Shown piece after piece: positions 8,907 to 28,101 of a DNA stretch of 64,000 bases. Every line of letters begins with the position of its first letter. Within the stretch, counting starts at the first letter, position 1. The stretch comes from Salinibacterium sp. (lineage in GTDB: Bacteria > Actinomycetota > Actinomycetes > Actinomycetales > Microbacteriaceae), in the NCBI GenBank assembly GCA_019638845.1, contig JAHBSZ010000001.1, positions 310,001-374,000 of the forward strand, read 5' to 3'. Both the position numbers and the translations under genes were made by a program. The notes under the pieces are model-generated. The model ran no database searches and was not told the origin of the DNA. It saw only the letters and a program-made list of their open reading frames with translations.

Positions 8907-9824
8907 CTAGACCTTCAGATACCTGCTGATCGCGACGCTCGCAGACGCGGCAGCGAGAAGGGCGCCCACCACGATGAGAATCGGGACGACTATCAAGGCG
9001 TCACTCAGCCCTACGAGCGTCGTCGTGGTCTGGAGCGTCTGAGCCAGGACTCCCTTCACGAAGAATTGAACGATCGCCACGATCGCCCCACCGGCAAGGA
9101 TCGACCCGATGAACGACGCGAATACACCTTCAAGAATGAAGGGCGTCTGGATGAACCGATTCGAGGCCCCCACCAGCCTCATGATGCCGAGCTCGCGCCG
9201 TCGGGAGAACGCACTCAGGCGAATCGTGGTCGCGATCAGCAACACCGCCGCAATCAGCATGAGCACGGCGATCCCGATCGCTGTCGCGCTGGCCGCGTTG
9301 AGCACGGCAAAGATCTGGTCGAGGTAGGCGCGCTGGTCTGCGACCTCCTGCACGCCAGCAGACCCTGAAAGACTCTCGATGAGGACGTCAGCGTCATTGG
9401 GGTTGAACAGGTTCACCCGGAAGCTCTGCGGAAGCGTGTCTGGGGTGACGAATGCGGCGATGGGTTGGTCGGAGAACTGCGTTTGGAAGTTCTTGAAGGC
9501 TTGTTCGTGAGTCTCGAACTCGAACTTCTCGACGTAGGGTGCGAGGGTTGCCGACTCCAGTTGCGCTTTCACCGCCTCGATCTGGGCCGGAGTCGCCTCG
9601 GTTTGCGTACAGTTGCCCGTCGTGTCGAAGTCGGTGCACATGTAGATGGCAACTTGAGCGCGGTCATACCAGTAGTCCTTCATCTGGCCGATCTGCATCT
9701 GTAGCAGAATCGCCGCCCCCACAAAGGTGAGCGAGATAAAGGTGACGAGAATCACCGAGATAACCATGGATACGTTTCGGCGCAGTCCGTTTCCGGCCTC
9801 GCCGAGGATGAGGCCGAGTCTCAC
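8907..9824 (-). CDS. ftsX: Cell-division ABC permease FtsX
   Basis: A 305-residue divisome membrane protein that couples FtsE ATP hydrolysis to septal peptidoglycan hydrolase activation. It has one N-terminal membrane helix (about 20-45), an extracytoplasmic loop to about residue 185 containing two Cys residues (in [11 protein letters not shown]) that may form a disulfide, then three C-terminal helices with [15 protein letters not shown] between the first two, as in other FtsX proteins. The GTG start overlaps the ftsE stop (GTGA), giving the usual ftsE-ftsX pair. Confidence 0.95.
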
Positions 9825-10555
9825 GGGGCGGTCTCCCTCTCGAACGAACCGAAGCCCTGCGTGGGAACGGCCTGAGTTTGATAACCGCCCTGACGCTCGT
9901 CGCGCACAATCTGACCCGTGATGAGCTCGATCACGCGGCGCTTCATCTGGTCGACGATTCCCGCGTCGTGGGTGGCCATCAACACTGTCGTGCCGCTCAG
10001 GTTGATGCGCTCGAGGAGGGTCATGATGCCGGCGGAGGTCGCGGGATCGAGGTTTCCCGTTGGCTCGTCCGCGAGCAGGATGGCCGGCTTGTTGACGACC
10101 GCGCGCGCGATGGCGACGCGCTGCTGTTCTCCACCGGAGAGCTCGTGCGGATAGCGGTTCGACTTGCCCGCGAGCCCCACCATCTTGAGGGCATCCGGAA
10201 CCGCTTCTTGAATGAACCCGCGGCTCTTGCCGATCACCTGAAGCGTGAAGGCGACGTTGTCGAACACCGTCTTGTTAGGCAAAAGGCGGAAGTCCTGGAA
10301 GACGACGCCAAGGTTGCGGCGGAAGTAGGGAATCTTGCGGTTCGGCAGCGAGTTGAGATGTTGGCCCAGCACGTGAATCGCACCTTTGGTGGGATTCTCC
10401 TCGCGCAGGATCAGCCGCAAGAAGCTCGACTTGCCGGAACCGGAAGCGCCGACGAGGAACACGAATTCCCCCTTGAGGATCTCGAGGCTCACCGAGTTGA
10501 GAGCTGGTCGAGTAGTCCCGGGGTAGGCCTTGGAGACAGCGTCGAAGCGAATCAT
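9821..10555 (-). CDS. ftsE: Cell-division ATP-binding protein FtsE
   Basis: A 244-residue ATPase. Walker A is GASGSGKS (36-43), the signature is LSGGEQQR, Walker B is ILLADEPTG, and MATHDAGI carries the switch His. The first residues [14 protein letters not shown] match the family start, so I use ATG at 10555 rather than an upstream in-frame GTG that would run into the 3' end of prfB. The C-terminal tail is about 15 residues longer than in the E. coli protein. It overlaps ftsX by 4 nt. Confidence 0.95.
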
Positions 10556-10563
10556 TTGGGGAC

Positions 10564-10569
10564 AGCCTA
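10564..10569 (-). promoter_or_regulatory. Possible -10 box for ftsE
   Basis: On the minus strand TAGGCT ends 8 nt before the ftsE ATG, which would give a transcript with little or no leader. No Shine-Dalgarno sequence is seen before that ATG. It implies that ftsEX can be transcribed separately from prfB. Confidence 0.35.
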
Positions 10570-10631
10570 AGTAGGCGTTTCGCGCACCAGCGGAACGACG
10601 CGCACGAGGCCAAGACTCACAGGTTTGAGAG

Positions 10632-11741
10632 CTAGTCCTCGATCGTGCGCTTGCGCCACTTGATGCCGGCGTTGATGAACCCGTCGAGGTCGCCGTCGAA
10701 GACATTCGAGGGGTTGTTGACCTCGAACTCCGTACGCAAGTCTTTGACCATCTGGTAGGGCGCGAGAACGTACGAGCGCATCTGGTCACCCCAACTCGCC
10801 GTGATGACGCCTGCGAGCTCCTTCTTGGCCGCAGCCTCCTGCTCGCGCTGCATGATGAGCAACCGCGACTGGAGCACGCGCATAGCGGCCGCGCGATTCT
10901 GGATCTGACTCTTCTCGTTCTGCATCGAGACCACCAGGCCGGTGGGCAAGTGGGTGAGGCGCACCGCCGAGTCGGTCGTGTTGACGGACTGACCGCCGGG
11001 ACCGCTGGACCGGAATACGTCGACCCGGATGTCGGACTCGGGAACCTCGATGGCCCCGGCCTCCTCGATCAGCGGGATGACTTCGACAGCGGCGAAGCTG
11101 GTCTGACGCTTGCCCGCCGAGTTGAACGGACTCATCCGCACCAGACGATGGGTTCCCGCTTCAACACTGAGCGTGCCGAAGGCGTACGGGGCATCGACCT
11201 CAAACGTTGTCGATTTGATGCCCGCTTCCTCCGCATAGCTGGTGTCCATGATCGTCGTCGGGAAGCCATGCTGTTCGGCCCAGCGCAGATACATGCGCTG
11301 AAGCATCTCCGCGAAGTCCGCCGCGTCGACGCCGCCCGCACCCGCGCGAATCGTGATGACTGCCGGATGCGCGTCCCACTCACCATTCAGCAGGGTTTGC
11401 ACTTCGAGCTCGCCCAGGAGCTTCTGGATGCTCGTGAGTTCGGTGCGCGCGTCGGCTGCGGCCGCGGCATCCGACTCCTCGTTCGCCAGTTCGACCATGA
11501 TCTCCAAGTCGTCGAGGCGACTCGCGATGGACAGGATCTTGGCAAGTTCTGCCTGCCGGTGGCTGAGCGCGCTCGTCACCTTCTGCGCCTTCTCCGGGTC
11601 ATCCCAGAGGTCGGGAACTCCCGCCTGCTCACTCAGGTCGGCGATATCGGCCTCGAGCCGCTCCACCCCGACTACGGCGCGAATATCCGCGAAGGTCGAG
11701 CGAAGGGCAGAGATGTCTTCAGTGAAATCGAGCTCGTCCAT
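10632..11741 (-). CDS. prfB: Peptide chain release factor 2
   Basis: A 369-residue class I release factor. The catalytic motif GGQ is at 249-251 within [20 protein letters not shown], and the stop-codon recognition tripeptide SPF is at 204-206, which identifies RF2 (UGA/UAA) rather than RF1. The reading frame is continuous around residues 20-35, so there is no programmed +1 frameshift of the E. coli type. The gene stands upstream of ftsE with a 76-nt gap. Confidence 0.96.
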
Positions 11742-22876: not shown

Positions 22877-23161
22877 ATGCGTGCAAAAAGGATGCATCAA
22901 GTGCAAGATTGTTGTGTGATGTTCTCGCTACACCCCATCTCGGGCACCCCCAACTACTTGATCCGCCAAAAGCGGCGCGATCAACCGGGAGTGACCCTTG
23001 TCGCGGAAGTCGTCGAATATCCCGAGGGATACACGTTGTACCGAATGGATGCCACAGGGGTATTGGCCGCCCAGCTTGCCACTCCTGACGAGGCTCTCAG
23101 CTTCTACAAGGACTGGGTCAAAGACACGAACCAGACCATCGTGGGTATCGCCGAAAACTGA
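22877..23161 (+). CDS. Small protein of unknown function
   Basis: A 94-residue protein I do not recognise. It has no signal peptide or membrane helix; the middle reads LVAEVVEYPEGYTLYRMDATGV, suggesting a small beta-rich fold, and the end is an acidic helix (DEALSFYKDWVKDTNQ). The first 14 residues contain two Cys and could be untranslated: ATG 22919 is an alternative start and gives an 80-residue protein. It diverges from tadA and converges with the dioxygenase gene. Confidence 0.55.
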   Translation: MRAKRMHQVQDCCVMFSLHPISGTPNYLIRQKRRDQPGVTLVAEVVEYPEGYTLYRMDATGVLAAQLATPDEALSFYKDWVKDTNQTIVGIAEN

Positions 23162-23194
23162 AGCTCGCTTGCCTGCGGGTAACCCCGAACCGGA

Positions 23195-24226
23195 CTAGCT
23201 GTAGACGGCCGCCACTGTGCGGCGATCCGGCAGCATCTGCGGCCAGAGGCGACGACGGTCACGAACGACAAACCCACGGGCGATGAAACGGTCTTTCCCG
23301 TCAAAGCGTGGGGCATACATCGAGCGGCCGTGCATGGCGCGCAGATTGTCGAGCATCAGCAGGTCGCCCGCCTGCAAATTGTGAGCATCGCGATTGGCGA
23401 TATACACCTCCACGACCTTCTCGAGCAGGCGCTGAGCTTCGGCAGTAATGCCATGCATCAGGTCTTGATCGACCAGCACGTAAGGGTCGTCCTCCGGGCC
23501 ACTGAGAATGGCGAACGGACCACGGACCGCCTCGGGATCTGGGATGTAGGGCTGGAACGATTCGTCGATCGTGGTAGCCCAGAGGGGCTGGCGCAGCTTC
23601 GCTACCTCTTCGGGAGTGAAGAGCTTTGAGATCTTGCGACCGGAGAATGCGTACGTCAATGCCTCGGGGTCACCGCGCAGTGCGCCGAGGATCACGTAGT
23701 CGGGCTTGTAGGCGGAGAAGCACTGCTCGGTGTGCGCCTCCAACTCGACCTTCGATCCCTGCGATTGCTGAGTTGTCGCAAGCTTGGGGTTGGGCACCAT
23801 GTCTTGGATGAGGTGGCCGTTGCCCTCGGCCTGATAGGCGATCATCGTGCCGAGCAATTGCGCAAGCACCGCCTGCTGCTTGGCGAAAGTGGTCTTCGCG
23901 CCGACACCACCCTTGTTATCGAGCGGGGTGTCCACGAGGTCTTCGTCGACGATGAGGCCACGGACGACCAGAATGCCGGTGTCTGAACCGACATTGGAGA
24001 AGTTGAGAATCGCCTCGCGCACCTCAACAGGAACGTTAAAGGAGGCGGCGGCCGCCTGAAGGTTGAAGTCATCGGGCTGAGTGTTGGCGTCAGCCGTGAT
24101 CGTCTGCGCAGCGGTGCGGATGGCCTCGGCCTGCGCGGCATCGAGAATGAAAAGGCTCGGCTGGAGCTCGTGAACGGTAATGTCGCTCTCCTTGTTCTCT
24201 GTGGTGCTCAGGGTGGGAGCACGCAT
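23195..24226 (-). CDS. Fe(II)/2-oxoglutarate-dependent oxygenase, clavaminate synthase/asparagine oxygenase-like
   Basis: A 343-residue enzyme of the TauD/clavaminate-synthase fold. The facial triad is visible: His165 and Glu167 in EAHTEQCF (HxE form) and distal His299 in RAMHGRSMY, with Arg317 placed to bind 2-oxoglutarate. The HxE form occurs in asparagine, arginine and related free amino-acid hydroxylases (AsnO, VioC). There is no biosynthetic cluster around it, so the substrate is open: a free amino acid or a small secondary metabolite are both possible. An inverted repeat lies immediately before the start. Confidence 0.85.
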   Translation of the reverse strand: MRAPTLSTTENKESDITVHELQPSLFILDAAQAEAIRTAAQTITADANTQPDDFNLQAAAASFNVPVEVREAILNFSNVGSDTGILVVRGLIVDEDLVDTPLDNKGGVGAKTTFAKQQAVLAQLLGTMIAYQAEGNGHLIQDMVPNPKLATTQQSQGSKVELEAHTEQCFSAYKPDYVILGALRGDPEALTYAFSGRKISKLFTPEEVAKLRQPLWATTIDESFQPYIPDPEAVRGPFAILSGPEDDPYVLVDQDLMHGITAEAQRLLEKVVEVYIANRDAHNLQAGDLLMLDNLRAMHGRSMYAPRFDGKDRFIARGFVVRDRRRLWPQMLPDRRTVAAVYS

Positions 24227-24233
24227 ACCTAAA

Positions 24234-24257
24234 TTACACCCTCGAAATCGAGTGTAA
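24234..24257. promoter_or_regulatory. Inverted repeat before the oxygenase gene
   Basis: TTACAC-CC-TCGA and TCGAGTGTAA form a nearly perfect inverted repeat (one 2-nt bulge) centred about 20 nt before the oxygenase ATG. It overlaps the likely promoter and could be an operator; no cognate regulator is adjacent. Confidence 0.4.
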
Positions 24258-24312
24258 GGGGGCCCTCAGTGACCTCCTAGGACCTTCGTCCTCTCGTACA
24301 CTGGGAGTGCCA

Positions 24313-24396
24313 GCGGGAGTGGTGAAATTGGCAGACACGCAGGATTTAGGTTCCTGTGCCCGAAAGGGCGTGCGGGTTCAAGTCCCGCCTTCCGCA
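24313..24396 (+). tRNA. tRNA-Leu, anticodon TAG
   Basis: An 84-nt cloverleaf. The acceptor stem pairs GCGGGAG with CTTCCGC (one G-U), the anticodon stem CAGGA/TCCTG encloses TTTAGGT with anticodon TAG, a long class II variable arm (GTGCCCGAAAGGGCGT) marks it as Leu, and the T-arm has GGTTCAAGTCC. CCA is not encoded. Its last 15 bases are repeated 1.24 kb downstream, marking an integration site. Confidence 0.95.
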
Positions 24397-24398
24397 CT
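24382..24398 (+). repeat. Left attachment repeat (attL) in the tRNA-Leu 3' end
   Basis: GTCCCGCCTTCCGCACT, identical to the copy at 25625-25641. It covers the 3' T-stem, the acceptor strand and discriminator of tRNA-Leu, the classic target of tyrosine integrases. Confidence 0.75.
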
Positions 24399-24498
24399 GA
24401 CGGGCTTGTGCCCACTAGGGCGCTCGGCCGTTGGTGCCGAAGGCGCGCGCGGACTCGCACTTCGGGACCCGCCGCCGGTTCCGACGCGTTGCTACAGC

Positions 24499-25404
24499 TC
24501 AACTTGGTCTCTTTTGCGCGCGTTCGGCCGCGGCAGCAACCTTGCGTATCTGGTCGAGTCCCAACTGATCGCCAACTCTCTGGCCCGCGACCTGTGGAAA
24601 GAGCGGCCTCTCGCGTCGAAACAGTCCGCTGTGGTTGAAATCGGGAACGCTCCTTCTCCACAAATGGAGTTTCGAGTCCCACGTGAATGCTCCAGTCAAG
24701 GAATCGAATCGCTCGGGAATCCATCCATACTGTGAATCACGGATTACCTGGTTCTCGATGGCACGTGTCACCACCGCAGCTGTCCAGTCCGCGAATTGAA
24801 TGTTGGCACTCAAGATACTGTCGACATGCATGGGCGGCTCGATGATCCGCTTCATTTCTTCGCGATCACTGGCTCTGCTCAGAATGTGCCCGTACATATT
24901 CGGGATCCGCTCGGCGCGGGTCCGCTCGTTGATCTGGTCGATCATGACCATCAGGCGGGACGATTTCTTGTCAGCATGCATGCATAGTCGGTTCAGGGTC
25001 TCCTGCATCGCACGCGTTTCGCGCTCAACCGGGTCCATCCGCGTTTGCTTCTCGGTTCCAAGTTCCTTCTCGTCCGCGTAATAGAAGAGGAACCCGCCCA
25101 TCTTTCGAAGCTTTGAGACGAGGCCTCGGTAAACTCGTATGTGTTGGGGGTACTTCGTGGGGGTCAAGGTACGAAACATATCCGCGCCCTTCCTCTCCCA
25201 TTGGGCCGGTGATCCAGCAGCCTCAAACTCGGCTCGAAAGACGGTGCGCTTCTCGTGGGTGAAGATTGCCCCGAAAGCCCTTGCGTTCTCCTCGGGGATC
25301 ACAAATCCCGCATACCCAAATGCAGGACTTGTTCTAAATCTCGGGTGATCTTTCGCGATAAAGGCCCCTGGCTCACCGATTTCGTCGATGTAGGCGAGCA
25401 GCAT
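24499..25404 (-). CDS. DUF3800 domain protein
   Basis: A 301-residue cytoplasmic protein. It opens LLAYIDEIGEPGAF, the first conserved block of DUF3800 (usually YxDESG), and has a second acidic block in LMVMIDQINERTRAE and an NIQFADWTAAVVTRAIEN segment near the C-terminal third, consistent with an RNase H-like metal-binding fold. DUF3800 proteins are common on mobile DNA and have been suspected to be nucleases or defence factors; activity is not established. I chose ATG 25404, since the conserved domain starts at once. Base composition is lower in G+C than the neighbours, supporting transfer. Confidence 0.75.
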   Translation of the reverse strand: MLLAYIDEIGEPGAFIAKDHPRFRTSPAFGYAGFVIPEENARAFGAIFTHEKRTVFRAEFEAAGSPAQWERKGADMFRTLTPTKYPQHIRVYRGLVSKLRKMGGFLFYYADEKELGTEKQTRMDPVERETRAMQETLNRLCMHADKKSSRLMVMIDQINERTRAERIPNMYGHILSRASDREEMKRIIEPPMHVDSILSANIQFADWTAAVVTRAIENQVIRDSQYGWIPERFDSLTGAFTWDSKLHLWRRSVPDFNHSGLFRRERPLFPQVAGQRVGDQLGLDQIRKVAAAAERAQKRPS

Positions 25405-25428
25405 GCGATTGATTATGCCCTTAACGCA

Positions 25429-25454
25429 GAAACCCACGCATCAGCGTGGGTTTC
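25429..25454. repeat. Perfect 11-bp-stem hairpin near the right end of the islet
   Basis: GAAACCCACGC and GCGTGGGTTTC pair perfectly around the 4-nt loop ATCA. It lies 25-50 nt upstream of the DUF3800 start. It has no T-run, so it is not a standard terminator for either strand; it may be an operator, an attenuator, or part of the mobile element end. Confidence 0.55.
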
Positions 25455-25620
25455 TCGAATTGGCGCGCATCCCACTGTTTCAGAGACCGCTACCTTTCAC
25501 AAAGTATCAACTTGGGTAGGGGCTTCGCAAGCCAGATCCATAATGAGGGATTGATACCCAGTATCTAACCGACCCGCGAATGCAGCGTTCAAAACGGGAT
25601 TGTGGTGTTCGCGTCAGTTC

Positions 25621-26871
25621 TCACGTCCCGCCTTCCGCACTAGCTTTGGCCGTGCGCTCCTCATCCAGCCGCTGCATCCGACCGAAGTAGCCTGCGATGG
25701 GAACGTCGGTTGATGAGTGGGCGATGATCGAGAGTGAGATCGCCACCACGATGAGGTGGAAGAGGTGTTCCGCATCGGGGCTGCCACTCTCGAGCACGAG
25801 GACACCGTAGAGCACCGAAGCGAACCCCTTTGGTCCAAACCACGCCGCGGTGGCGCGCTCCTCCCACGGCAGTTTGCTGCCGATAAGTGCCAATTCGATC
25901 GCCACCGGCCGAGCCACGATCAAAATGAGAACAGCGAAAAGGTAGCCGAGCGGCGAGACGTCGGCCAGCACGCTCGGCGCGATGAGGGCACCGAAAATGA
26001 AGATCGCGAGAAGCTTCACGATCTCGGCAATGAACTCGCCGTATTCGATGAAAGCATCACGCAGTTCGGGAGCGGCGCTGGCGACAGTGATGCCCGCCGC
26101 GAAGGCTGCAAGGTACAGGTTCGCGCCGGTGGACACAGCAACGCCGTAGACGATGATCGCGATGGCGATAGGGCCAAGCGAGGCGTACAGCGGCGTCGTC
26201 GCGAGGAACCGGATGCGCAGCAGAAACGAGACAAGAAGCGGAACCACGATCCCCAGTGCAACACCACCCACAAGCTCGAGGGTGAGGACCAGCGGCTCGA
26301 CATCCGGCCCACCGATGGCGGCGATGAAGATGAGCACCACCGGCAACGCAAGCCCATCGTTGAGCCCAGACTCGACCTGGAGCAGGCCGCGGATACGGGC
26401 GGGAATCTCGTTGCGTCCCACAATCGCCGAAGCGAAGACCGGATCCGTGGGGGCGAGGACAGCTGCGATGAGAAGCGCCTGCGGCCACGGCAAACCCACG
26501 AGCCACACCCCGAGCAGTGCCGTGATCACGAAAGTCAGGGGCATCCCGAGCAGCAACGCTCGCCCGGGCAGCCGCCACGCTCTCGCGAGGTCACGGATCG
26601 CCAAGCGCTGGCCGTCGGTGTAGAGCACAACGAACAGGGCGATCTGCGCGAGGACACTTACTCGATCATCTCCGGCCGTGAGCACCACCACGCCCGCCAT
26701 TCCCTGCCCGAGCAGGAACCCGGCCACGAGGAACACCACAGCGGTAGAGAGAACCGTGCGATGTGCAATGCCCGAAATGAGAATCGCAGCGAGCAGCACG
26801 ACGCCGAATGCGAGAATCACGGTTTTTCGTTGCGTCGAGTCGAAATGCAGGGCATGAGACAACTTTCCCAC
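25621..26871 (-). CDS. Cation/proton antiporter (CPA1 family)
   Basis: A 416-residue membrane protein with about twelve hydrophobic segments. CPA1 landmarks are LAPTDPVFASAIVG (the Asp-containing transport motif) and QVESGLNDGLALPVV, with AAWFGPKGFASVLYG near the C-terminus. It probably exchanges Na+ or K+ for protons. There is no cytoplasmic regulatory tail. Its last codons (AEGGT and the TGA stop) are read from the right attachment repeat, so in the ancestral arrangement this gene ended inside tRNA-Leu on the opposite strand. It starts at a GTG 18 nt after the ROK gene. Confidence 0.89.
   Translation of the reverse strand: MGKLSHALHFDSTQRKTVILAFGVVLLAAILISGIAHRTVLSTAVVFLVAGFLLGQGMAGVVVLTAGDDRVSVLAQIALFVVLYTDGQRLAIRDLARAWRLPGRALLLGMPLTFVITALLGVWLVGLPWPQALLIAAVLAPTDPVFASAIVGRNEIPARIRGLLQVESGLNDGLALPVVLIFIAAIGGPDVEPLVLTLELVGGVALGIVVPLLVSFLLRIRFLATTPLYASLGPIAIAIIVYGVAVSTGANLYLAAFAAGITVASAAPELRDAFIEYGEFIAEIVKLLAIFIFGALIAPSVLADVSPLGYLFAVLILIVARPVAIELALIGSKLPWEERATAAWFGPKGFASVLYGVLVLESGSPDAEHLFHLIVVAISLSIIAHSSTDVPIAGYFGRMQRLDEERTAKASAEGGT
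25625..25641 (+). repeat. Right attachment repeat (attR)
   Basis: Second copy of the 17-bp tRNA-Leu 3' sequence. The next base upstream differs (C here, A in the tRNA), with a further short match TCA before it. It overlaps the 3' end of the antiporter gene. Confidence 0.75.
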
Positions 26872-26889
26872 AGGGAAGGGACAACTTCT

Positions 26890-28101
26890 CTAGGCAGACC
26901 GACTTCCGCGCGGCTCTGCAATGAGCGCTTCGAGTGGCATCATCGCTGCGCCCAAGGCGACAGTGTCTCCTCCGAACCGGCACGCGTGCAGTGAGAACTG
27001 TCCGCCCGGCCTGACGAGCGCTTCCGCGCGGGTCGCCGCCTCGATGCGAGACGCGAAGCCTTCCATGAGTCGAAGTCCAACCCAGCCCCCGATCACAACC
27101 CGCTCAGGATTGGTGAGGTTCACGAGGCCGCCGAGCGCAGAACCCAACGTTGCGACTAGATCGTCGACGACGGCAACCGCAAGGGGATCCGACGACTCGA
27201 GCAACTCGCCGATCGCCCGCCAGCCGGAACCTTCAAAGGTTCCGCCGGCCTCCCGCCAGGTCTCGAGGATCGCATCCGCCCCGAGATATGCCTCGACACA
27301 TCCACGGCCGCCGCAACGACAAAGCCTGCCGTTGCGCACAATCTTGACGTGGCCCCACTCCCCCGCGCTACTGGTCAGGCCGCGCGCGAGTTCGCCGCGC
27401 GAGACGATCGCTAAGCCGACGCCTCGCCCGAGCAACACGACGAGAGCCTCGTCCACACCTCGCGCCGAACCATCCCACAGTTCGGCCATTGCTTGCGTCT
27501 TCGCCCCGTTCTCCCCCCAGACAGCCATGTCGTGCGACACCAGATCGACAACCGGGATCGGCGGCCAGCCGAGGCTCTGCGCGTAGAGCATCTGGCGCCC
27601 GTCGGCATCCGACTCTACGATGCCCGGCAACCCGAGGCCGATCCCCACCATGCGCTCCCACGGTGCGGGGTTTCGTGACCTGAGCGCGTCGAGCGCCTCG
27701 TCAAGATCCGCCGCAATAGCCTCGATTTTCTCGCCCTCACGACCGCCCCGAAACTCACGGTCGATGCGCGTCATGGACAGGTCGAACAGTTCCACCGCGA
27801 CACCGCGCTCGCCCACGTCCGCCCCAAGAAAGTATGCTCCCGCTGGATTCGGCGCAAGGAGGGTCACCGGTCGCCCACCGCTGGAGGCGACAGAGCCTGC
27901 CTCCATGATGAGCCCTTCGGAGATCAGTTCGGAGACGAGATTAGTCACCGACGCGACCGAGAGCCCCGATTCGCGCGCAAGAGCCGCGCGCGAGGTTTCC
28001 CCGGTGAGGATCACACTGCGTAGCGCCTGCGAGCGGTTGCGTTGACGCACTTCGCTCACGGTCGCGGGCGACGCCGTCGTCACTACGCCGCGCCCGCTCA
28101 T
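26890..28101 (-). CDS. ROK family transcriptional repressor
   Basis: A 403-residue protein with an N-terminal winged helix-turn-helix (about 15-70: ILTGETSRAALARESGLSVASVTNLVSEL) followed by a ROK sugar-kinase-like domain. The zinc motif CRCGGRGCVEAYLG is present. It is the last gene of the beta-glucoside operon and likely represses it, released by a sugar such as glucose, cellobiose or a phosphorylated form. ATG 28101 fits the domain start; longer upstream reading is out of the family. Candidate operators are the three boxes at 34178-34212. Confidence 0.87.
   Translation of the reverse strand: MSGRGVVTTASPATVSEVRQRNRSQALRSVILTGETSRAALARESGLSVASVTNLVSELISEGLIMEAGSVASSGGRPVTLLAPNPAGAYFLGADVGERGVAVELFDLSMTRIDREFRGGREGEKIEAIAADLDEALDALRSRNPAPWERMVGIGLGLPGIVESDADGRQMLYAQSLGWPPIPVVDLVSHDMAVWGENGAKTQAMAELWDGSARGVDEALVVLLGRGVGLAIVSRGELARGLTSSAGEWGHVKIVRNGRLCRCGGRGCVEAYLGADAILETWREAGGTFEGSGWRAIGELLESSDPLAVAVVDDLVATLGSALGGLVNLTNPERVVIGGWVGLRLMEGFASRIEAATRAEALVRPGGQFSLHACRFGGDTVALGAAMMPLEALIAEPRGSRSA

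Follow-up and report, generated by a model that had tools for sequence, protein, structure and literature searches.

A conserved structured RNA accompanies the DUF3800 gene of an integrase-less islet at a tRNA-Leu gene in Salinibacterium sp.

Introduction

Genomic islets that carry no recombinase of their own include the cis-mobilizable elements (CIMEs), of which the classical forms span 1.2-13 kb and the gene-less microCIMEs 130-220 bp (PMC7563491, in the part cited here). Here we describe a comparable locus in a 64,000-nucleotide stretch of Salinibacterium sp. (assembly GCA_019638845.1, contig JAHBSZ010000001.1, positions 310,001 to 374,000; hereafter the window), where a DUF3800 gene and a structured RNA lie between a tRNA-Leu gene and a second copy of the tRNA 3' end. 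Like CIMEs and microCIMEs as presented in the same part of PMC7563491, this islet has its cargo flanked by attachment (att)-like repeats at the 3' end of a tRNA or other gene. The sizes also fit, with the 1.24-kb islet in the classical range and ~148-bp units of related genomes in the microCIME range. Unlike CIMEs, no parent integrative and conjugative element or integrative and mobilizable element was recognised at this tRNA, where no systematic search was made for one, and some repeats of relatives are much longer, at 157-198 bp.

RNA motifs associated with DUF3800 genes were reportedly described by Weinberg in 2017. Rfam families RF02969 (DUF3800-I) and RF02968 (DUF3800-IX) are named in the cited part of PMC11701678. 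The Rfam DUF3800 motifs are likewise structured RNAs next to a DUF3800 gene, and the window RNA matches none of them at E<=10. A DUF3800 protein beside Cas12a2 has been assigned an RNase H fold from AlphaFold, with a catalytic rearrangement and associated noncoding RNAs (ncRNAs) (PMC10910872, in part), and DUF3800 is present in some V-A2 and VI-F loci (PMC12669027, in part). In the parts cited, none of PMC10910872, PMC11701678 and PMC12669027 describes the RNA reported below, and we found no account of the function of DUF3800 in this literature.

RNAs that precede defence-type protein genes offer a second comparison. The ncRNA RCd22 neutralises the toxin AbiF, which is encoded after it, and the AbiF-Cd/RCd22 system resembles the islet in its ncRNA-first order; unlike the islet, which is known from sequence alone, it has two RNA motifs, an Abi_2 protein and proven activity (PMC12373285, in part). 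The type III toxin-antitoxin system ToxIN, treated in the same part of PMC12373285, also has an RNA directly before a nuclease gene; its toxin fold differs from that of DUF3800, which is only a putative toxin.

Results

A structured RNA forms the second part of the islet

An earlier sequence-only reading of the window had described a single-gene islet inserted in tRNA-Leu. We found that the islet does hold one sizeable protein gene, DUF3800, but also a second part overlooked in that reading, a conserved structured RNA of 74 nt, so that it is not a one-gene unit. The RNA lies upstream of the gene and ends 17 nt before the conserved ATG (25404). It was first spotted as a hairpin that also precedes homologues in other genera, and was then aligned over 75 positions in 15 sequences (the window, 12 other genomes of the family, and plasmids of Rhodococcus and Gordonia). 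Three helices are supported, namely P1 (GGU-A-GC/GCGCC), P2 with a UGAAAYA-type loop, and P3. Paired cells made up 97.7% of the alignment compared to 88.0% in shuffles, and 12 base pairs showed double-sided changes compared to 5.0 in shuffles, and none of the 500 shuffles did as well; further pair types were not unusually numerous (21 versus 19.2 in shuffles, 113/500). RNAalifold, unprompted, recovered nearly the same fold with double-sided changes in 13 pairs, and the window RNA folded alone gave z = -4.1. Model R1 scores it at 86.7 bits, the window sequence being part of the model's alignment. Variation is confined to the stems and short loops, and no long variable guide-like segment is seen in the 75 positions.

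On the window RNA, every Rfam family stays below its gathering score, and the sub-threshold matches on its hairpin at E<=10 include Leu_leader (the best, 24.3 of 50 bits), BSnc120 and rnk_pseudo. Rfam DUF3800 families gave no match at E<=10 in window positions 23000-27000, locus L132 2700-3100 or locus L109 9400-9700, and none at the gathering score in sets of 12 and 20 sources. A putative promoter element, GATACT, was read by eye 7 nt before the RNA; a sigma-70 consensus scan gave no match.

The encoded protein matches Pfam PF12686 DUF3800 (E 1e-11, 46.2 bits versus a cut-off of 21, profile positions 1-148 of 149). A longer open reading frame (ORF) with a GTG start reaches 25437 and would overlap the RNA, and we favour the conserved ATG as the likely start. 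Residues invariant in alignment A2 include D5, E6, E68, K111, D154 and D204. The structure model has a predicted local distance difference test (pLDDT) score of 67.7 and a predicted template modelling (pTM) score of 0.71, and a sequence search of the PDB yielded no useful identification.

The RNA and the gene are linked across a patchy distribution

DUF3800 genes of this kind are scattered: a single genus genome has one (n=27), as do 14 family genomes (n=398) and, in a phylum sample of 396 genomes, just the window's own. They also occur in 19 plasmid records (two at 58-60% identity, the rest at <=32%) and four phage records. This agrees with the mobile islet that the sequence-only reading had proposed; presence of the same gene with normal composition in all relatives, which that reading had said would speak against mobility, is not what the 27 genus genomes display. 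The 14 near-full-length family places lie in 13 genomes, with two in G394 and that of G310 in two pieces; G308 has fragments only, and G394 has a further, distant copy (28%). At locus L110 of G394 (9492-11678), two different DUF3800 genes adjoin, and the second (28% identity) has its own hairpin RNA at 30 bits.

The RNA precedes all 14 near-full-length family homologues. Across the 398 family genomes, 18 RNAs score strongly (>=72 bits) with model R1, 14 of them directly upstream of DUF3800 and four solo; the model's alignment contains 13 of the 14, and the solo RNAs and the second G394 copy stand outside it. By R1, the units of the window and L111 each have a single full-length RNA, and in L110 each of the two DUF3800 genes has its own. 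Around the solo RNAs, tblastn found no convincing DUF3800 remnant, a short match in L232 (E 0.005) falling on the RNA itself. Two solo-RNA genomes, G382 and G414, lack any PF12686 match, two distant matches occur in G260, and G300 has another, complete unit. Altogether, some R1 match occurs in 55 of the 398 genomes, the weaker ones scoring 25-39 bits; among those viewed, the match in G366 is by eye a terminator-like hairpin and that in G219 lies near a contig start.

At distant loci, R1 scores 20-34 bits directly upstream of DUF3800 in seven of nine proteobacterial plasmid or phage loci; the two without a match are L133 and L195, which are closely related. It also matches 12 of 22 viral DUF3800 loci at E<=0.063, including L235 (identical to the unit of G300), L239 and L240 (kin of phiO18P), and a hairpin before DUF3800 can be seen by eye in the 20 viral loci viewed. 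When 20 RNAs selected from these distant loci were aligned separately, an 11-pair hairpin was kept, with a double change in 7 of the 11 pairs, but neither P1 nor P2 was recovered. The sequence that holds the RNA and DUF3800 unit of G300 (L107 4924-11923, the same as L124) is identical to a portion of a 43.6-kb contig listed as viral in IMG/VR. In phage phiO18P the DUF3800 gene sits between rep and portal, where A051 and P05B have other genes; in P2-like phages of E. coli this interval is a defence hotspot, according to the cited part of PMC9122126.

Repeats and composition mark the islet, and related units are insertions

The repeat of the tRNA-Leu(TAG) end noticed earlier some 1.24 kb away is indeed an exact 17-mer (Table 1), with exactly two copies in the window, the second 1,243 bp downstream; it grows to 21 nt if one mismatch is allowed. 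DUF3800 is the sole ORF of >100 aa lying wholly between the copies, alongside mechanical ORFs of 93 and 99 aa antisense to the gene or its leader. No integrase lies between the two repeats by ORF list and Pfam, as the sequence-only reading had held. By the features that define CIMEs, att-like direct repeats are present at the tRNA 3' end, and no ORF of >100 aa for recombination, conjugation or mobilization lies between them. The window genome has 11 phage-integrase (PF00589) matches outside the islet, which might act in trans. The reported fall in G+C to about 50% was too steep: G+C is 56.6% between the repeats versus 64.2% in the window, with 55.2% in 24496-25624 and 51.9% in 25438-25624. Only 2 of 314 sliding window segments of islet size have an equal or lower value.

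Two other genera carry the RNA and DUF3800 unit as a true insertion, bounded by direct repeats (28 bp in one, 157 bp in the other) and matched by empty sites in relatives. The expectation that strains lacking the islet would show empty sites thus held for these two related units, but none of the relatives compared showed an exact empty site corresponding to the window's own islet. The unit is present at 3 of 15 loci in the genus of G094; nine of the other 12 show both flanks without it, and in three no left flank was found. The 28-bp repeat has two copies in G094 and one each in G842 and G841. Among the loci without the unit, that of G308 has a DUF3800 fragment beside the flank, which suggests that the unit probably decayed there. 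The unit of G218 lies at the same gene end as that of G094, and its left flank is unlike the empty sites.

For the genus of G346 (24 genomes searched, 17 loci compared), G346 and G310 carry the unit, the flanks adjoin without it in G830, G829 and G835, and at the remaining loci the gap is wider or the compared stretch has no left flank. G310 is without the upstream repeat copy. The two 157-bp copies of G346 are identical at 152 of 157 positions and share a few states absent from relatives, suggesting that they arose when DNA of the host itself was duplicated. In G394, two 1,033-bp copies comprising the RNA and gene only, 98.8% identical, lie 37 kb apart without repeats.

Other islets and gene-less units share the tRNA-Leu site

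Downstream of the tRNA, over about 1.3 to 14 kb examined per genome, an extra copy of its 3' end occurs in 5 of 27 genus genomes, namely the window's own (labelled G000 in the repeat and tRNA-site comparisons), G013, G007, G021 and G022. That relatives might carry different cargo, as the sequence-only reading predicted, was borne out in G013, a different species of the genus, in which the same tRNA-Leu(TAG) holds an integrase-less MntA/HepT islet of 1,106 bp with a 27-bp repeat containing one mismatch (L074 11098-12230). The G013 MntA matches PADLOC PDC-S09, and its HepT has relatives in 27 of 229 genomes. As a control, we examined the 8 best-scoring of 30 HepT loci, of which seven were testable, L273 being without downstream sequence. 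At L275 (730-1156) a MntA/HepT islet lies at a transfer-messenger RNA (tmRNA) 3' end between 47-bp repeats that are 994 bp apart and 91% identical, and at L276 198-bp repeats at the 3' end of a long ORF are 987 bp apart and 79.8% identical. No repeats were found at the other five testable loci, one of which, L270, lies beside tRNA-Ser. The unrelated MntA/HepT thus forms similar ~1-kb islets, indicating that repeat-flanked islets are not peculiar to DUF3800. In G007 (L065 1470-1775), a MntA-like ORF lies just outside the second tRNA 3' copy.

G007, G021 and G022 have gene-less units of 146-148 bp, made of a spacer and an exact tRNA 3' copy, and a 147-bp unit is present in G072, which belongs to another genus. 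Smith-Waterman scores of the left 97 bp of the window islet were 44 against G072 and 41 against G007, compared to a maximum of 34 in 400 dinucleotide shuffles; those against G022 (25) and G021 (24) fell within the null and were no better than that against the unit-less G019 (24). At the right end, positions 25541-25620 were within the null against the ~148-bp unit. These units (L063, L064, L065, L121) are similar across two genera and look like microCIMEs or structured RNA.

Table 1. Positions of features of the islet and its flanks in the window, and of solo RNAs at other loci of the family.
Feature	Position	Strand	Evidence
tRNA-Leu (anticodon TAG)	24313..24397	+	ARAGORN; Rfam RF00005, 53.7 bits
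Direct repeat copy 1, attL-like (tRNA 3' end and following base or bases)	24382..24398	+	Exact 17-mer
Left terminal segment, resembling first ~100 bp of gene-less ~148-bp unit (G072, G007)	24399..24495	.	Smith-Waterman
DUF3800 gene, 301 aa from conserved ATG (25404)	24499..25404	-	ORF; Pfam; acidic residues invariant in alignments A2 and A3
Structured RNA, three helices (P1 enclosing P2, then P3 hairpin)	25422..25495	-	Model R1; covariation; fold z
Right segment, probably with RNA promoter	25496..25624	.	Sequence
Direct repeat copy 2, attR-like	25625..25641	+	Exact 17-mer; overlaps last antiporter codons
Na+/H+ antiporter (PF00999), flanking, convergent with tRNA	25621..26871	-	ORF list; Pfam
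Solo RNA	L229 3038-3111	-	Model R1
Solo RNA near Doc/Fic-like ORF (name by eye)	L230 2721-2796	+	Model R1
Solo RNA	L231 2804-2877	+	Model R1
Solo RNA directly before HigA-like antitoxin ORF (name by eye)	L232 2998-3071	-	Model R1

Discussion

The reading that we favour, tentatively and at a little under even confidence, is that the window holds an acquired, integrase-less, CIME-like islet whose cargo is a module of an RNA and an RNase H-fold DUF3800 protein, the RNA restraining a toxic or anti-phage nuclease. From its anatomy, its setting and the RCd22/AbiF precedent, we infer that the module most likely works as a toxin or anti-phage nuclease of RNase H fold that is kept in check by the RNA. 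The DUF3800 protein would be the toxic or anti-phage nuclease. The RNA and the mRNA would arise from one promoter, with the RNA in excess because P3 partly stops transcription, and the RNA would bind and restrain the nuclease, as in type III-like toxin-antitoxin systems. Infection that halts host transcription or degrades the RNA would then release the nuclease. Solo RNAs could be anti-addiction copies or remnants. The unit itself may be moved in trans by integrases that other elements encode, or by accretion, or it may recombine through gene 3' ends.

Several observations weigh against this reading. With regard to the protein, the top PDB fold match is RNase H2, but the match is weak (E 0.5, probability 0.44); PADLOC gives only a weak match (E 0.03) and NCBIfam none. 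ToxI-type antitoxins are tandem repeats, whereas the islet RNA is single-copy and without a clear Rho-independent terminator; P3 is a strong hairpin without a proper U-run, and a terminator scan was negative. With regard to the islet, direct repeats exceed shuffle nulls at just 4 of 16 DUF3800 loci (G000 18, G094 28, G218 56, G346 142), with none at the other 12. The window's score of 18 compares to a maximum of 17 for random segments at 1.1-kb spacing (n=52, 60 having been drawn and eight close to DUF3800 units removed), so that repeat length is weak evidence by itself and it is the location at the tRNA 3' end that gives the repeat its meaning. No integrase-bearing parent element was recognised at this tRNA, where the search for one was not systematic. 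Finally, given the left-end similarity to the gene-less units, the repeats may predate the gene and not be its own att sites, which departs from the earlier claim of intact att sites belonging to the islet.

The last point leads to an alternative that we consider quite possible, at somewhat less than an even chance, in which the second tRNA 3' copy is older than the gene and the RNA and DUF3800 unit inserted into an existing microCIME-like unit of ~148 bp. Four genomes have such units, 146-148 bp long and including an exact copy of the tRNA 3' end, and the left segment matches those of G072 and G007 beyond 400 shuffles; however, the similarity to those of G022 and G021 lies within the null and the right end shows none. 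The data also fit a single element family with a conserved left end. Either the gene may have entered a ~148-bp unit, or one element family may have given rise to such units as deletion products. It is very improbable that the RNA and DUF3800 form a mobile element in their own right, through RNA-aided transposition or homing like that of IS110 or homing nucleases. The likely RNase H-like fold with an adjacent RNA, the duplicated 1,033-bp copies without another gene, and the 28- and 157-bp repeats at different gene ends would be consistent with such mobility, but MntA/HepT forms the same kind of islet, so the repeats do not need DUF3800, and repeat length is not constant and repeats are lacking at the duplicated copies.

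The role of the RNA could also be other than restraint. A cis-acting leader of the DUF3800 mRNA only, serving as attenuator or autoregulatory binding site, would suit the position of the RNA, immediately ahead of the conserved start codon at those near-full-length loci that were viewed, and P3 could attenuate; yet four strong RNAs are without DUF3800, two of them in genomes without any PF12686 match, and we regard this role as unlikely. That the RNA is a cofactor or guide, making the RNase H-fold DUF3800 an RNA-programmed or RNA-activated defence nuclease, appears rather improbable to us. The pairing of RNA and protein recurs in Actinomycetota and Pseudomonadota, and DUF3800 accompanies Cas12a2 (PMC10910872, in part) and some V-A2 and VI-F loci (PMC12669027, in part), but no long variable guide-like segment was seen within the 75-position RNA.

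Taking all loci together, it is conceivable, though on balance doubtful, that they represent a widespread, undescribed RNA-restrained (or RNA-activated) system, in which a ~75-nt RNA and an RNase H-fold DUF3800 protein extend from actinobacterial chromosomes to proteobacterial plasmids and phages. Solo RNAs would act in trans as anti-addiction elements, and the system would spread in the form of integrase-less cassettes of ~1 kb, located at the 3' ends of tRNA, tmRNA and other genes and shared with other small toxin modules. DUF3800 accompanies some CRISPR types, and one gene lies in a phage defence hotspot; a partner RNA with covariation makes the role of the protein directly testable and raises the question of whether the RNA silences, activates or guides the nuclease. 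The islets also indicate that ~1-kb toxin or defence modules can sit between att-like repeats without a recombinase, with at least two unrelated cargo types.

Further observations at the tRNA-Leu site

The 16 kb between tRNA and antiporter in G023 was considered as an island and set aside, its long ORFs looking metabolic by eye and no second tRNA copy being present. An A-to-C change in the second repeat copy was likewise tried as an element-family marker; with only 2 of 9 genome pattern matches at tRNA-Leu, it is not a broad marker. Diaminobutyricibacter tongyongensis (L085 3428-3486) has an extra tRNA-Leu 3' copy 38 bp on, in which one T-loop A is changed to C, and G077 (L123) has five such tRNA-Leu 3' copies in tandem.

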